39,143 bases of DNA from a virus, in IMG/VR virus record IMGVR_UViG_3300031240_000020, positions 1 through 39,143 of that record; one strand, written 5' to 3'. The notes beneath the pieces were generated by a model. That model had not been told where the DNA came from. It saw only the letters and a program-made list of their open reading frames with translations, and searched no databases. Shown piece after piece: positions 4,019 to 32,053 of the stretch. The first letter of the stretch is position 1, and every line of letters starts with the position of its first letter. Both the position numbers and the translations under genes were made by a program.

Positions 4019-5619
4019 TGCCTAGGGATTTATTTGAAGAGAGAGGAATTAAAATAGATCAGCCTCGTGATTTATTTCAAGAACGAGGAATAGAAACTCC
4101 ATCTATGAAAAAAAACAAATTAAAAGAATTATTAGGTGCAAATAGATCACCATTAGATACTGTTCGTGATTTAGGTCAGGGTGCATTAACAGGTCTTGGA
4201 GAAGGTGGACAATTAATTGCTAGAGCATTAACAGGTGGTTATGCTCCAAAAGTAGATTTTGATAAAGCATTAGGATTTGTTGGTTCTCCTAATAAGTCTA
4301 CCTCTGGAGAAGCTGAGAAAATGATAGGTTCATTTTTACCTTACATGGAATTTGGTGGTGGAGCGACTTTAAAAGGAATAGATGCAACAAAAGGTGCTGT
4401 TTCAAAAGGTATAGATTATTTGCAACCAGGAAAACAAGCAGAACAATTTAGATCAACTCTTGGATCAGGCACATCGTCTGAAAATATAGAAAATTTAGGT
4501 AAAAGATTGCAATTCGCTAAAAAATCAGCTACTGAAGAATCTTTAATACCAAAAAGAGAATTATATTCTCAAGAAGGTAAATCAAATATTTACAATGTTT
4601 CACAAAATGAATTACCAGAAGGAAACTTAAACAAATTAAGTGAAATAATAAATCCTCAAGAAGAGTTTTCAGTATCACAAAAAGATGCATTATCTAAAGC
4701 ATTAAAAGATTATAGAAAAACTGGAAAAATAGAGTCATTCTTAAATAAGAGTGAGGATATATTCAGTATTCCAGAATTAAAAGAATCTCATGCTGATAAG
4801 ATAGAAGATATTCTTTCTATGCCTACCAAGAGAGATAGTCTCTATTTATCTGACAAAGATGTGAATTCATTTTACGGAAAAAAAGGTAATTTGAAAGAAC
4901 TTCATGATGCATATGTTAAAAAACCTATTTTAAATAATTATGATGCTCTCCAATCTGCATTAAAGAAACAACAGAGAATTTTAGATAAAAGATTAAAATC
5001 AGGAACTATAACAGATTTAGGAGAATCCAAGTTAGATCAACTTAATGAAAATATAAAAAATCTTGATAAAGATAAAGAAAATTTTATGAATACTTTGCCT
5101 CAAGAATTAAAGAATCTTGAGAATGAATTTCGCCAGAAATATGCTTCTGGTGTTGGAAAATATGCAGATGCAGGTGAAGGCGCAAAAAATATTATTCGTA
5201 AATTATATAAAGGTAAATGGCAAGAAGTTACACCTAATCAGATAGGCAGAGTTTTTTCTAGACCTACAACGGAAGTTAAAGAGATTCTTAAAGAAATAGG
5301 CCCATCTGGATCTAAGAATATATTATATAATGCTCTTCAAAAAGTTCCTGTTGGAGATGCCGAAGGATTAGCTAACACTTTACTAGATTTGAAAAGAACA
5401 AAAGGTTATGATCAATTTATAACCAATGATATGGAAGATTGGGCACAGAAAACATTAACTCAAGTTAAACGCTCTAAAATGATTAAGAACGCACTTGGAT
5501 CTTTAGGTGGCGCAGGCGCAGGATATGCTGCTTTTGGACCAGCAGGAGCTGCTATAGGTCTTGGAGCACCATTTGCTAAGCAAGGATTGCAAAAGGTAGG
5601 GCATTATCTGAAAAGATAG
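4018..5619 (+). CDS. Putative ejection protein (P22 gp16 position)
   Basis: 533 aa, translationally coupled to the previous gene. The N-terminus carries a tandem repeat, PRDLFEERGI / PRDLFQERGI (residues 2-11 and 16-25). A Gly-rich amphipathic stretch follows (about 50-70, DLGQGALTGLGEGGQLIARA), then a long Lys/Glu-rich helical region. The C-terminal segment (about 490-525) is a Gly/Ala membrane-active-looking stretch (GGAGAGYAAFGPAGAAIGLG). This architecture fits large podovirus ejection proteins that reach the cell membrane. No lytic transglycosylase motif seen. Confidence 0.55.
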   Translation: MPRDLFEERGIKIDQPRDLFQERGIETPSMKKNKLKELLGANRSPLDTVRDLGQGALTGLGEGGQLIARALTGGYAPKVDFDKALGFVGSPNKSTSGEAEKMIGSFLPYMEFGGGATLKGIDATKGAVSKGIDYLQPGKQAEQFRSTLGSGTSSENIENLGKRLQFAKKSATEESLIPKRELYSQEGKSNIYNVSQNELPEGNLNKLSEIINPQEEFSVSQKDALSKALKDYRKTGKIESFLNKSEDIFSIPELKESHADKIEDILSMPTKRDSLYLSDKDVNSFYGKKGNLKELHDAYVKKPILNNYDALQSALKKQQRILDKRLKSGTITDLGESKLDQLNENIKNLDKDKENFMNTLPQELKNLENEFRQKYASGVGKYADAGEGAKNIIRKLYKGKWQEVTPNQIGRVFSRPTTEVKEILKEIGPSGSKNILYNALQKVPVGDAEGLANTLLDLKRTKGYDQFITNDMEDWAQKTLTQVKRSKMIKNALGSLGGAGAGYAAFGPAGAAIGLGAPFAKQGLQKVGHYLKR

Positions 5620-16736: not shown

Positions 16737-16993
16737 TGACTAATAGTTTAGATAAAAAAGCTAATTGTGATATACATGGTTTTGTATTATTTAAACATAA
16801 AATAAATAAAAAAGGTGAATGGTATGTATGTCAGGATTGTCTTAGAGAACAATGGAGAAAAGCTAAGAAAAAACATTATAATAAAAATCCAGGATATACT
16901 AAAGGATGGCAAAAAGACTGTAGGGAAATAAGAAAATATTTCTCTACATATATAAAATTAATGTTATATATAAGTAATGAATCGCCCAAATAG
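16736..16993 (+). CDS. Zinc-finger protein beside tRNA
   Basis: 85 aa. C-x2-H at residues 10-13 and C-x2-C at about 33-36 (CQDC) make a zinc site, followed by a basic helix (REQWRKAKKKHYNKNPGY). The last 10 nt lie inside the tRNA gene. A DNA-binding or HNH-like protein is possible, but no HNH triad is seen. Lies with the tRNA between 18-bp direct repeats, so it is probably a late arrival. Confidence 0.55.
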   Translation: MTNSLDKKANCDIHGFVLFKHKINKKGEWYVCQDCLREQWRKAKKKHYNKNPGYTKGWQKDCREIRKYFSTYIKLMLYISNESPK

Positions 16994-17056
16994 CTCAGTT
17001 GGTAGAGCAACTGCTTCGTAAGCAGTAGGTCGTTGGTTCAATTCCAATTTTGGGCA
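16984..17056 (+). tRNA. tRNA-Thr (anticodon CGU)
   Basis: 73 nt, full cloverleaf: acceptor GCCCAAA/TTTGGGC, D stem GCTC/GAGC, anticodon stem ACTGC/GCAGT with loop TTCGTAA (anticodon CGT at 17017-17019), T stem GTTGG/CCAAT with loop TTCAATT. Discriminator A; CCA is not encoded. It reads ACG, a codon that low-GC hosts usually decode poorly. Confidence 0.95.
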
Positions 17057-20403: not shown

Positions 20404-20578
20404 TCTAAGTTTTGATGAAAGCAACGCCTTAAGTGAAACAGTAGTCATGTTCATGGAAATGCCAATTAGAAAATTAAGATATACAATAAAATCATTAAAA
20501 AAATATAAAACCGTTGAAGCAAAAGAAGTTATTGATATACTGCAATTAATTATTAATAAGAAGAAAATAAAAGTTTAG
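20396..20578 (+). CDS. Small hypothetical protein
   Basis: 60 aa, overlapping the nuclease by 8 nt. Helical, basic C-terminus (LQLIINKKKIKV). Last gene of the replication operon, followed by a hairpin (20609-20628) and a terminator. Confidence 0.5.
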   Translation: MNDLSFDESNALSETVVMFMEMPIRKLRYTIKSLKKYKTVEAKEVIDILQLIINKKKIKV

Positions 20579-20628: not shown

Positions 20629-20660
20629 CTCCTCGTTTTGGGGTAAAAATATTTGGGACG

Positions 20661-20683
20661 ACCCGTGAATAGCGGGTTTTTTT
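20661..20683 (+). terminator. Rho-independent terminator
   Basis: ACCCG (20661-20665) and CGGGT (20673-20677) flank a 7-nt loop and are followed by TTTTTT. It probably ends the replication operon and marks the upstream limit of the structured RNA region. Confidence 0.6.
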
Positions 20684-20784
20684 ATTATGAATACATGCAA
20701 CCTACTAGAGGATCGCTAGTGGCATTTTATGTGAAGTTTGTTAAGCCGCGCATGTGTTCGCCAATTATGTTGTTACATATCTAT

Positions 20785-20845
20785 GACCCATTTACCTTCC
20801 CCATGTTGGGTGTACTGCGGTGCGCACTGCTTGGTATAATGGGTC
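20785..20845 (+). repeat. RNA module 0 (degenerate)
   Basis: GACCCA (20785-20790) pairs with TGGGTC (20840-20845), then GTCAGTTTACGG, the tail motif of the other modules. The GATACT motif is missing, so this is a weak copy. Confidence 0.4.
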
Positions 20846-20855
20846 GTCAGTTTAC

Positions 20856-20872
20856 GGAAACAGCGTCGCTGA
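20856..20872 (+). repeat. Arm repeat, copy 1
   Basis: GGAAACAGCGTCGCTGA, identical to 21244-21260. Here it folds directly with ATTTCC to make a short hairpin before module A. Confidence 0.8.
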
Positions 20873-20886
20873 TTTCCAAAGGTTAT

Positions 20887-20977
20887 GCCCTATGATACCT
20901 GGCCAATAGGATTTGAGTAATTAACTCAATTAAACAGGCATGATGAATCATGTGACCAGCGAAGGGTAAAATAGGGC
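20887..20977 (+). repeat. RNA module A
   Basis: Outer helix GCCCTAT/ATAGGGC, motif TATGATACCT, inner helix CTGG/CCAG, hairpins TTGAGT/ACTCAA and CATGAT/ATCATG, then GGGTAAAATA. The tail shares 21 identical bases (20968-20988) with module C (21576-21596). Confidence 0.7.
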
Positions 20978-20999: not shown

Positions 21000-21242
21000 G
21001 TGGAAATGAAATTGAATAGACAATATTTTTTTGATAAATATTTAAACAAAATTATTGAATATAGGGAAAAATATTCAATATTAGAAAAACAATTAGAAAC
21101 TGCTACTGCTAGAAATGTAATATTTATTAAATCTTTGCAAGAAGATTTGTCGATAAAATTTTGTAAATTTATTCTAAAACCAAATGTTTATTTTGAATTA
21201 GAAGAGCAAAAATATATTGAAAATTTATTAATTAAAGATTAA
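21000..21242 (+). CDS. Small coiled-coil protein inside the RNA region
   Basis: 80 aa, Lys/Glu/Ile-rich with a heptad-like stretch (IIEYREKYSILEKQLETATA). Its AT-rich coding style matches the phage genes, not the flanking RNA. It lies exactly between the two arm repeats, its stop ending 2 nt before copy 2. No good SD is visible. Could be an inserted gene or chance reading frame; the coding-like composition favours a gene. Confidence 0.45.
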   Translation: MEMKLNRQYFFDKYLNKIIEYREKYSILEKQLETATARNVIFIKSLQEDLSIKFCKFILKPNVYFELEEQKYIENLLIKD

Positions 21243-21243
21243 T

Positions 21244-21260
21244 GGAAACAGCGTCGCTGA
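21244..21260 (+). repeat. Arm repeat, copy 2, with 120-nt insertion domain
   Basis: Same 17 bases as 20856-20872. Its partner TGTTTCC lies at 21384-21390, so the arm encloses about 120 nt with its own hairpins (ACACC/GGTGT, CGG/CCG and GGCC-rich stems). The following AAAGTTTATGG leads into module B as AAAGGTTATG leads into module A. Confidence 0.75.
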
Positions 21261-21399
21261 CAGTGAAGCGAATTCGGTAACACCCTGTGAGGTGTGAAAC
21301 GGTTAAAACCCGTGGCAGACGAGCCTGAAAATGGTAGACCACAGCGCTGAAGTTCCTGGCCAGAAGAACGTGCAATTCGTTCCTGTTTCCAAAGTTTAT

Positions 21400-21468
21400 G
21401 GCCTATGATATTTAGTATGGGGTTGGCATAGCCACACCATTTAAATGATTAGCTAAATAAGATAGGCC
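21400..21468 (+). repeat. RNA module B
   Basis: Outer helix GGCCTAT/ATAGGCC, motif TATGATATTT, inner helix TTTAG/CTAAA, apical hairpin ATGG...GGC/GCC...CCAT. Shortest copy (69 nt). Tail ACCAGTTTATG. Confidence 0.7.
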
Positions 21469-21478
21469 ACCAGTTTAT

Positions 21479-21585
21479 GCCCGACGATACTTTTTACAAG
21501 ACGAAAGCCTAAGTTTGACGAATGCGTTCCACGCACTAGGATGATAACCGAGGGTTAGTAGAAACGATTTAAAGGAAAATAGGGC
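21479..21585 (+). repeat. RNA module C
   Basis: Outer helix GCCC/GGGC, motif GACGATACT, inner helix CTTT/AAAG, then GGAAAATA. Tail GCCAGTTTATGG is shared with module A. The first bases CCGACGATACT match module D exactly. Confidence 0.7.
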
Positions 21586-21595
21586 GCCAGTTTAT

Positions 21596-21683
21596 GGCCG
21601 ACGATACTAAAACTATAAATTAATCCTTTGATGGATACTAATCCTTTCCGTGAGAGTCGGATGATGTTTTGGGAAAATAGGCC
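21596..21683 (+). repeat. RNA module D
   Basis: Outer helix GGCC/GGCC, motif GACGATACT, inner helix AAAAC/GTTTT, then GGGAAAATA. Tail TCCATTTTTTA. Confidence 0.7.
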
Positions 21684-21704
21684 TCCATTTTTTATCTACC
21701 AAAA

Positions 21705-21733
21705 AATTACCAATTAATGTCAAATTGGTAATT
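21705..21733 (+). other. Strong AT hairpin between modules D and E
   Basis: AATTACCAATT (21705-21715) pairs perfectly with AATTGGTAATT (21723-21733), with A-run before and GTATTTT after. It could be a weak terminator separating two transcripts. The surrounding 21685-21835 is AT-rich, unlike the modules. Confidence 0.5.
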
Positions 21734-21749
21734 GTATTTTGTTAAATGT

Positions 21750-21776
21750 TTGATGGGTTAAAAAGATATATATAAT
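21750..21776 (+). promoter_or_regulatory. Possible promoter before module E
   Basis: TTGATG (21750-21755) and a perfect TATAAT (21771-21776) with 15-bp spacing, shorter than ideal. If used, it would transcribe module E and the tRNA-like element separately. Confidence 0.35.
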
Positions 21777-21840
21777 TGATTAATATATAATTTAACTTTA
21801 ATTTTGTTAATTGCTCTGATAAGCTCTGTTAAATGTTCAT

Positions 21841-21942
21841 GGCCGATGATACTGATGTGCGAGTTTTATATTATGTCCGTGCTGGTCATTACTAGTTAAC
21901 TCCAGCGGAATGAAAAACTTTATATCTGAGGGAAAGTAGGCC
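21841..21942 (+). repeat. RNA module E
   Basis: Outer helix GGCC/GGCC, motif GATGATACT, inner helix AGTTTT/AAAACT, then GGGAAAGTA. Tail TCCAATTTATGG runs straight into the tRNA-like element. Confidence 0.7.
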
Positions 21943-21953
21943 TCCAATTTATG

Positions 21954-22034
21954 GATTCAGTACCTCAGATGGTTAGAGGACATTGAGTACTATAGTACTA
22001 GGTGAAGTCGTTGGTTCAACTCCAACCTGAATCC
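21954..22034 (+). ncRNA. tRNA-like structure without anticodon loop
   Basis: Acceptor GATTCAG/CTGAATC (7 bp; a flanking G-C at 21953/22034 would extend it to 8), linker TA, D arm CCTC/GAGG with AGATGGTTA, T arm GTTGG/CCAAC with canonical loop TTCAACT, 5-nt variable loop. The anticodon arm is abnormal: CATTG/AGGTG with two G-U pairs and one mismatch, then AGTAC/GTACT closing a 4-nt TATA loop. No 7-nt loop exists, so it cannot decode. It may act as a processing signal or tRNA mimic. Confidence 0.75.
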
Positions 22035-22128: not shown

Positions 22129-23058
22129 ATGGACATTAATGTACCAGCAGGTCAAACCAGTGGTCTTCATTTGCACGATAGAAATGAAAATCACACAAAC
22201 GAACATTGCTCTTCTGCCGGGCAAGTTGAACGCTTAAGTTTAGCTGGAATTTCAGCAACTAATAGCAATGCTGTTGAAGGTCGAGCATTAACCAATGCAA
22301 ATGGTGTTGAAGGTCGTGGAGAAACCGAAAGATTCGGTTTTCAAAACTTGAATGCTGTAAGAAATGAAGCGGTAGAAACACGCAATAAAGTTGAACGCAA
22401 TGGTGATAAAAATGAATCCACAACTGAAAAGTTTGGATTATATAATGCCAATAAAGTTGATCAGAGCATCGATGCTACAAAAGATGGCATTAAAGATGCA
22501 ATGCTTCAATCTGCACAAGACACAGCAAGTTTAATGGTAAGCCAAACTATAGGCTTTAAAGATGGACTGTTAAAAGCATGTGGTGATACAGCTTCAATCA
22601 TACAAAATGCTAACAGCGGTTTCCGCGATTCTCTTTTGCAAGCTTCTAACAATGCCGCAGCTATACAGGCTTCTATTGCTAGCGGTGTTTGTGGAATTGA
22701 AAAAGAAATAGCTTTTGTTAAAGGTTCTGTTGAACTACAAGCTGCAAACAATCGTGCTGCGTTAGAGCTAGAAGCCGCTAAGAACTTAGCCGCTGTTCAG
22801 CTTACAGCAACAATTAATGCAAAAGATGCTGCATTGACAGCTGCACATAATACAGCTGCATTGATGGCTAAAATTGCAGAATGTTGCTGCGAAAATAAAG
22901 CATTGGTTATTGAAAAAGCAAATGGTACTGATATGCTGATTCGAAAACTTGATGAAGATCGCGTTAAAGATCAATTACAATTCGCTCGTGATGAATTGGT
23001 TGCTCTTCGTTTACGTGCTTCTTTAGTTCCCCCAGTAGTTGCAGCAGTGTCATTGTAA
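22129..23058 (+). CDS. Ala-rich coiled-coil protein, ECCCENK motif
   Basis: 309 aa, SD TGGAG. After an N-terminal His/Asn-rich part it becomes repetitive Ala/Asn/Glu helix (AANNRAALELEAAKNLAAVQ) with about 11-residue spacing, then AECCCENK (about 256-263) and TDMLIRKLDEDRVKDQL. Proteins with the CCCE..L..EKA..TD.LIR signature occur in many phages without known function. It has its own -10 and a strong terminator, so it is probably highly expressed; a structural or filament-forming role is a guess. Confidence 0.65.
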   Translation: MDINVPAGQTSGLHLHDRNENHTNEHCSSAGQVERLSLAGISATNSNAVEGRALTNANGVEGRGETERFGFQNLNAVRNEAVETRNKVERNGDKNESTTEKFGLYNANKVDQSIDATKDGIKDAMLQSAQDTASLMVSQTIGFKDGLLKACGDTASIIQNANSGFRDSLLQASNNAAAIQASIASGVCGIEKEIAFVKGSVELQAANNRAALELEAAKNLAAVQLTATINAKDAALTAAHNTAALMAKIAECCCENKALVIEKANGTDMLIRKLDEDRVKDQLQFARDELVALRLRASLVPPVVAAVSL

Positions 23059-23060
23059 TA

Positions 23061-23089
23061 AAAAGGGGGCATAAAGCCCCCGTTTTTTT
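23061..23089 (+). terminator. Rho-independent terminator (bidirectional)
   Basis: GGGGGC (23065-23070) and GCCCCC (23076-23081) around ATAAA, followed by GTTTTTTT and preceded by AAAA. Works for the coiled-coil gene and, on the other strand, for the small gene at 23102-23263. Confidence 0.9.
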
Positions 23090-31459: not shown

Positions 31460-32053
31460 ATGGAAGAATATAGAATAGATATAAAAATAAGAAATAACTT
31501 AATACTTTCTAAGATAGAATCATTAGGATATAAAAGTCCATTAGACTTTTGTAAAAATATAGGAATTAGCTATGGCGGATTGATAGCTGCCGCTAATATG
31601 AAACGTCCTATTTTTGATAAAAAAGGAAAAATTCGGCCTTTCATTAACAAATTATGTGATGTATTGAAATGCGCTCCTGAAGAAATATTTTCAGCTAATC
31701 AGATGGAAGCTTCGCTAGCAACGAACAAGAAAACTTTATTAGTTAACGAAGCAGAAGCAATTTATATAATGAATCAAACTGATAGTCAAAAGATGTTAGA
31801 GGAACAAGTATTTGATGATCAGAGAAATGATGCAATTTTAACAATTCTATCTACTCTCGCACCTCGTGAGAGACAAATTATTGAGATGCGCATGGGATTA
31901 GGAGAGTATAATAAAGAACATACTTTAAAAGAGTGTGGAAAAAAATTTAATGTTAATAAAGAAAGAATAAGGCAAATAGAACAAAAAGCTTTACGAAAAA
32001 TGAGGCATCCTTGGAGGAGTGATCCATTAAGAGAATATATATACGAGGAATAA
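31460..32053 (+). CDS. XRE-like domain fused to sigma-70 region 4
   Basis: 197 aa, AAGG upstream. Residues about 11-78 look like an XRE-type HTH (SPLDFCKNIGISYGGLIAAA ... CDVLKCAPEEIFS). Residues 133-184 match sigma-70 region 4: LAPRERQIIEMRMGLG, then TLKECGKKFNVNKERIRQIE and QKALRKMRHP, close to RpoD region 4.2. No region 2, so it cannot melt promoters alone. Probably tethers host RNA polymerase to phage promoters or replaces region 4; candidate late-gene regulator. Confidence 0.75.
   Translation: MEEYRIDIKIRNNLILSKIESLGYKSPLDFCKNIGISYGGLIAAANMKRPIFDKKGKIRPFINKLCDVLKCAPEEIFSANQMEASLATNKKTLLVNEAEAIYIMNQTDSQKMLEEQVFDDQRNDAILTILSTLAPRERQIIEMRMGLGEYNKEHTLKECGKKFNVNKERIRQIEQKALRKMRHPWRSDPLREYIYEE

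Follow-up and report, generated by a model that had tools for sequence, protein, structure and literature searches.

A tRNA-like module without an anticodon loop closes an intergenic array of structured RNA modules in uncultivated phages: possible RNase P-type processing units

Introduction

Mitochondria divide their messages with tRNAs and the enzymes of tRNA maturation, and the tRNA-like domain of tmRNA joins an acceptor and a T arm to a long insert that is not an anticodon arm. According to the portion of PMC12710915 drawn on here, RNase P cleavage is RCCA-dependent, is optimal with U at position -1, and extends to hairpins that lack the contact between T loop and T-loop site. RNase P also cuts phage RNAs and polycistronic mRNAs, and the excerpted sections of PMC11143913 name phage P1/P7 C4 RNA, phage M3 RNA and polycistronic mRNAs as substrates that are not tRNAs. 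The genomic RNAs of plant viruses carry non-decoding tRNA-like structures; in the part of PMC9976931 used here, all viral tRNA-like structures have an N-1, and HisRS charges minihelices of 13 bp that carry G-1:C73. Two large structured RNAs of phages, GOLLD and ROOL, lie near tRNA islands (PMC12286853, in the section cited), and phage tRNAs that resist anticodon nucleases have been proposed (PMC10264068, likewise in part).

Here we describe an element of 82 nt at positions 21953-22034 of the window, by which we mean the whole stretch of DNA analysed (39,143 nt; positions 1-39,143 of IMG/VR virus record IMGVR_UViG_3300031240_000020). Like the non-tRNA substrates of RNase P, the element and its neighbouring modules are structured stretches with a free leader, an acceptor-like helix and often RCCA in a phage or mRNA context, whereas a series with tRNA elbows and arrays of modules at gene borders are not described in those sections of PMC11143913. 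Non-decoding mimicry and the tRNA-His type of N-1:N73 pair are shared with plant-virus structures (PMC9976931, in the same part), but the present modules are intergenic in DNA phages and have a T arm and an acceptor helix of the usual kind. An 8-bp acceptor is also found in tRNA-His, with which the element shares G-1:C73, and in bacterial tRNA-Sec; unlike both, the element has no anticodon loop. Its layout resembles that of the tRNA-like domain of tmRNA, and ARAGORN, which covers tmRNA too, reported no tmRNA. GOLLD and ROOL are likewise large structured phage RNAs near tRNAs, but the present array is made of repeated modules with shared ends and had no match to either covariance model (Rfam) at E 5.

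Results

Structured modules lie in an intergenic gap

The gap from the ORF that stops at 20578 to the downstream gene, which starts at 22129, contains repeated modules, and the element is the last unit of this 1.35-kb array. The features of the gap and its downstream gene are as follows.

20689..20759, + strand: weak candidate for a first module (GAATACATG/CATGTGTTC), tail GCCA
20785..20845, + strand: candidate module GACCCAT...ATGGGTC, tail GTCA, found by eye
20856..20877, + strand: mini hairpin GGAAAC-AGCGTCGCTG-TTTCC, found by eye
20887..20977, + strand: type A module (GCCCTAT/ATAGGGC), tail GCCA
21006..21242, + strand: small ORF within the array, 78 aa, no family match
21244..21390, + strand: type B elbow module with acceptor GGAAACAG/CTGTTTCC, D-like loop GACAGTGA and T loop TGCAATT; found by the held-out model R1 (38.1 bits, E 1.2e-6)
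21400..21468, + strand: type A module, end helix GGCCTAT/ATAGGCC, tail ACCA
21479..21585, + strand: type A module, end helix GCCC/GGGC, tail GCCA
21596..21683, + strand: type A module, tail TCCA
21841..21942, + strand: type A module (GGCCGATGATACT...AAAGTAGGCC), leader TTCAT, tail TCCA, found by eye
21947..21952, + strand: leader ATTTAT directly 5' of the element, tested for enrichment below; putative RNase P cut at 21952/21953
21953..22034, + strand: tRNA-like module with an 8-bp acceptor (GGATTCAG/CTGAATCC), a D arm, a 24-nt hairpin (TATA tetraloop) where a tRNA has its anticodon arm, and a T arm with TTCAACT
22129..23058, + strand: downstream gene, 309 aa, no family match

We recognised three kinds of module. 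Type A modules are built from an end helix of 4 bp that is GGCC-like, an internal loop of 7 x 7 nt (GACGAUA/GAAAAUA) and a variable stem, and NCC(A) usually follows; within the window their end helices interchange GCCC/GGGC and GGCC/GGCC. Type B and other elbow modules have an acceptor of 8 bp and a T arm of 5 bp, together with a D-like hairpin and a middle part that varies, and plain modules consist of a long stem, often with NCC(A). The type A internal loop (for example in 21596-21683) resembles the loop E sequence of 5S rRNA, GAUGGUA/GAGAGUA. Type A may accordingly be a 5S loop-E mimic; Rfam gave no 5S match in six loci, and the pattern occurred in 0/145 genomes of one phylum. Two of the type A modules are separated by an AT-rich stretch (21685-21836) with a hairpin-like TTACCAATT...AATTGGTAA.

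Terminator-like hairpins lie before the array (20660-20678) and after the downstream gene (23065-23081), and no convincing promoter was found between the first of these and the gene. Given the placement of the two hairpins, the array and the gene for the 309-aa protein could share a transcript, and probably do. Elsewhere in the window (31460-32053) is a gene for a sigma-70 region 4 protein (PF04545, E 1e-15), and the phage may supply its own promoter specificity.

The element is a cloverleaf that lacks an anticodon loop

Both the minimum free energy structure and the centroid from RNAfold are cloverleaves with a 5-bp hairpin closed by a TATA loop, and the cloverleaf is also predicted with G21953 included in the fold. 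All of the tRNA features that we checked are present apart from the anticodon loop. Specifically, U8-A9 follow directly after a 7-bp stem, the D stem is CCTC/GAGG, the D loop AGATGGTTA holds A14, G15, G18G19 and A21, the variable region is AAGTC (providing C48, the partner of G15), and the T arm is GTTGG-TTCAACT-CCAAC, whose TTC completes the elbow with G18G19. A first-pass annotation that described textbook acceptor, D and T arms, and an extended anticodon-arm hairpin ending in TATA with no 7-nt loop, is thus borne out. It had placed the 5' end at 21954; the boundary is better put at 21953 because G21953 pairs with C22034 beyond the 7-bp stem and makes the acceptor 8 bp. Nor does the preceding module run straight into the element as had been stated, since it stops at 21942 and a 10-nt linker, TCCAATTTAT, intervenes.

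The arm in the anticodon position spans 24 nt (CATTG AGTACTATAGTACT AGGTG), compared to 17 nt in a normal tRNA, and includes a G.A mismatch. An alternative 4-bp stem with a 7-nt loop can be drawn on paper (ATTG-AGTACTA-TAGT), although that loop has neither U33 nor a purine at 37 and is absent from the predicted fold. Hence, the element does not have the 7-nt loop on a 5-bp stem, with U33, that characterises a decoding tRNA.

In the window, both ARAGORN and Rfam at curated cut-offs reported only the tRNA-Thr at 16984-17056. ARAGORN did not call the element, which lies below the gathering cut-off of RF00005. The best sub-threshold Rfam match of the element was tRNA-Sec (RF01852; 26.3 bits, cut-off 47), which its 8-bp acceptor would lead one to expect. 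We also scanned for the full signature of an 8-bp acceptor, TA, a 4-bp D stem, an AG..GG..A D loop, a 5-bp T stem and TTCRANY. The window yielded one match, counting both strands; 100 dinucleotide-shuffled versions of it yielded none. The folding energy of the element is unremarkable (z -1.63), with 14 of 200 shuffles equally or more stable.

Related arrays are spread among uncultivated phages

Pattern scans of IMG/VR found related arrays in more than 35 contigs of uncultivated phages. Overlapping sets of contigs were recovered with the type A 3' end (15 contigs, 13 judged real after L013 and L014 had been left out as coding chance matches), an 18-base core of the type A 5' end (30 contigs) and the type B 5' end (10 contigs). 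L002-L005 were left out as chance matches of another scan. One record, L001, comes from a phage that is 99% identical; it carries the same element and has a single mismatch in 1550 nt of array. Because the element is unchanged there, a sequencing error in the arm is unlikely. The other outcome named as damaging to a mimic, relatives with a normal anticodon loop, was not seen either: the sole close relative is identical, and the distant arrays contain no clearly decodable module.

A search with a tRNA-like pattern matched at least 80 contigs, and among the matches listed there was no homologue of the exact element beyond L001. The matches listed comprised 12 with an 8-bp acceptor and an ARAGORN call, 6 with an 8-bp acceptor and no call, 12 called without an acceptor match, and 50 with neither (chance or criteria). 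Just L001 and L035 were relevant among the 6 uncalled matches. Among tRNA-like genes, those at L091:1881 on and L119:5820 on (+ strand) have an acceptor of 8 bp and an anticodon region enlarged by a long insert, and ARAGORN called neither. Two phages carry a similar 88-nt plain module (L012:774-861, - strand, tail AGCC; L035:3626-3713, + strand, tail AACC).

The array and the L021 modules had no match in 50,697 GenBank phage records, and the L021 modules had none in 72,556 plasmids. The 18-base type A core had a single match in genome_contigs (L025), which reads as coding, has no 3' half and was taken as chance. No array lies directly upstream in L009 and L010, which encode relatives of the downstream protein. 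The large terminase of the window was detected in 7 of 39 array-bearing records, or 4 of 22 among those longer than 30 kb. Since so few of these records, which may be fragments, have the terminase, the result suggests that modules travel between phage lineages. We found no description of intergenic module arrays of this kind in the open-licence literature.

Clusters of modules lie between genes that are mostly on the same strand. After eight of 82 scan matches had been removed by eye (wrongly so for L050 14191-14286, at 32.6 bits with R1), 20 of 38 clusters started within 15 nt of the stop of a same-strand ORF, compared to 8.6% of random positions. Apparent duplicates and modules cut at a contig end (L040, L042, L043 and L046) were also left out by eye. 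Where a long ORF was found next to a cluster among the 38, the nearest was on the same strand in 24/30 cases upstream and 28/33 downstream.

Elbow modules covary and mostly escape tRNA detection

A rule on leader and first pair reduced 63 raw candidates to a catalogue of 25 modules with a tRNA elbow and an 8-bp acceptor. All eight acceptor positions are paired in 25/25, with changes on both sides, and the T stem is nearly always intact; the modules were selected for pairing, which biases the percentage paired, and the evidence for covariation lies in how varied the pair types are. Across 14 aligned elbow modules, 93.5% of cells were paired and 14 of 18 pairs had changed on both sides, and none of 500 shuffles scored as high on any measure. 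A switch at T-loop position 55 goes along with one in the D loop, TT occurring with GG in 6/6 modules and TG without GG in 19/19 (Fisher 5.6e-6, which overstates independence, as many type B sequences are closely related). The most telling case of this switch is the second module of L049, which has the type B frame yet carries TTCGACT and CACGGTGA.

The element has the architecture of this class, with the leader TTTAY|G, an 8-bp acceptor, a 5-bp T arm and matched D and T loops. ARAGORN called 1 of the 25 modules, L039, placing its anticodon at position 41. In the L049 contig, a sequence beside two elbow modules (4288-4355, - strand) was identified by Rfam as a tRNA (42.7 bits) and missed by ARAGORN; its anticodon arm is short, with a 5-nt loop TAAAC by eye.

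We built a model, R1, from 14 elbow modules with the window excluded. On the window, R1 found the type B module and did not find the element. When forced with filters off on a stretch of 201 nt, it aligned exactly to 21953-22034 with 13.5 bits, below the 17-28 bits of 8 of 11 ordinary phage tRNA-His genes (scores for three are not listed). An R1 scan of the contig set gave 31 matches, including the 14 modules of the model; it lists no window match despite the E value of the type B module in the window scan, which we ascribe to different first looks. By sequence, therefore, the element is no closer to the elbow modules than ordinary tRNAs are. As its R1 score is no better than that of ordinary tRNA-His genes, the element is likely, from its sequence, to descend from a tRNA gene, perhaps recently.

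Modules share their 5' ends and many share a tail

Many modules have in common the leader TTTAY|G and a G...C stem, often with NCC(A) where the elbow is absent. With no selection on the tail, NCC followed 12 of 31 T-arm-less stems of at least 8 bp after TTTAY|G. For 14 control leaders the count was 4 of 113 stems, T arms being present in 3 of the 113; the difference has a Fisher P of 1.8e-6. T arms themselves occurred in 18/49 stems after TTTAY|G versus 3/113 after the control leaders. A previous version of this comparison, set at stems of 7 bp or more, gave NCC in 20/58 cases behind TTTAT; each of ten other leaders, with between 11 and 37 stems apiece, yielded 0 to 3.

For type A modules found via their 5' end alone, tails played no part in the 18-base search pattern. 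NCC was present in 20/21 of those with a 3' half at new, non-duplicate loci; outside these 21 were L036 and L043, with a type A 5' half and no 3' half, and a double match in L037. By comparison, NCC was present in 5 of the 25 elbow modules and absent in 20. CCA is not encoded in the 3' flanks that we read of ordinary tRNAs (the window's tRNA-Thr, Gln of L037 and Asn of L048).

Discussion

Our leading reading, to which we give an even chance from sequence evidence, is that the element is a tRNA-derived, non-decoding module closing an intergenic array, and that the modules are RNase P-type processing units of phage transcripts. The element is probably not a lone broken tRNA, given the related arrays, the shared module ends and the 25 elbow modules with covariation. 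Among the roles considered, an RNase P processing mark appears to fit it best, in view of the TTTAT|G leader, the G...C first pair and the RCC(A) tails of modules without an elbow. We prefer RNase P because it best explains why these traits are retained together: a -1 pyrimidine in the leader, G:C as first pair, an unbroken helix, and either an elbow or RCCA. U-1, the G:C first pair and the acceptor-T helix are all present in the element.

Host RNase P would recognise the elbow and acceptor helix in elbow modules, and the acceptor helix with RCCA in the others. Cuts at TTTAY|G would divide long phage transcripts at gene borders, and the last cut here would separate the array from the message for the 309-aa protein encoded at 22129. 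RNase Z or exonucleases would trim the element at its 3' end. A module read by processing enzymes rather than ribosomes could afford to lose its anticodon arm. Several results speak against RNase P. The tail 3' of the element's acceptor is TTCA rather than NCCA and so lacks the RCCA of an RNase P substrate, most elbow modules have no NCC, R1 misses the element in the window and scores it low when forced, and some arrays have opposite-strand neighbours (6 upstream, 5 downstream). Modules functioning as separate RNAs would show the same ends as processing units.

Perhaps the most interesting rival, albeit an unlikely one, is a chargeable mimic, in which the 13-bp acceptor-T helix and G-1:C73 form a HisRS substrate, as in plant-virus tRNA-like structures, that would sequester the enzyme or shield the end of an RNA. 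The 8-bp acceptors are consistent with it, as is a first pair of G:C in 23/25 elbow modules (G:U in 2/25). Among the pattern matches listed, 11 of the 12 ARAGORN-called viral tRNAs with a TTTAY leader and 8-bp acceptor are tRNA-His, and the charging of minihelices and the N-1 of viral structures (PMC9976931, in the part used) point the same way. However, no CCA is encoded after C73 of the element, and modules without an elbow would not fit.

We regard as improbable that the element is a relic, that is, a decaying phage tRNA gene with an anticodon arm broken, for example, by duplication of an AGTACT palindrome (AGTACTAT-AGTACTAG). Its T-arm stretch differs from that of the window's tRNA-Thr at just 1 of 19 positions, which would suit such an origin, as would the R1 result and the lack of a homologue beyond L001 among the matches listed. 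Yet no other arm is damaged, and pairing at the hairpin tip is perfect. Related arrays also hold other non-decoding elbow modules, one of which, in L035, scores 38.1 bits for tRNA in Rfam, above the cut-off, while its anticodon arm stays unaligned.

It is more doubtful that all modules of the array fold together into a single large RNA, a novel phage giant like GOLLD or ROOL in which the element is one domain. About 1.35 kb of structured modules within one gap would accord with this, as would the position of GOLLD and ROOL near tRNA islands (PMC12286853, in the section cited). Against it, neither model matched, 16/38 clusters consist of a single module, and module order and number vary. A known large-RNA family was rejected, there being no Rfam match. 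A tRNA-like attP has been proposed for halovirus HF2 (PMC8707807, in part). Hardly any weight attaches to an attP copied from a host tRNA gene here, for no integrase was seen among the window proteins scanned (a subset of ORFs in a record that may be incomplete) and similar modules recur inside arrays.

The first-pass annotation had read the element as a tRNA mimic serving as a processing mark, a stability element or a decoy for nucleases. That reading holds in part. A non-decoding mimic is supported by the related phages, whose modules have an elbow, an 8-bp acceptor and an abnormal or expanded anticodon region and are rarely called by ARAGORN. A decoy for anticodon nucleases fits poorly and, with the target loop missing, was not kept as the main explanation; for the same reason the proposal of PMC10264068, as far as the cited part goes, is not directly applicable to an RNA without an anticodon. 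The element may instead be a stability element, or a decoy aimed at enzymes whose recognition depends on the acceptor or elbow.

More tentatively than the RNase P reading of the element itself, we propose a modular RNA punctuation. Phages of several lineages may mark gene borders with tandem modules of RNase P-type ends and interchangeable design, be it tRNA elbow, internal loop or plain stem, the tRNA-like ones having given up decoding and perhaps even accepting histidine. If so, these phages would divide their messages via host tRNA-maturation enzymes with purpose-built mimics, which would explain why they retain the tRNA shape without decoding. The modules would constitute a natural library of minimal RNase P substrates, and their signature sequences would help find a hidden class of phage RNA in metagenomes.

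Separately, an ORF with an endonuclease match (L053:2778-3218, - strand; phrog_2340, E 1.4e-15) splits a type B elbow module between its D-like and T loops. L038 and L032 have starts that by eye resemble that of the interrupted module, and elbow modules may be homing targets.
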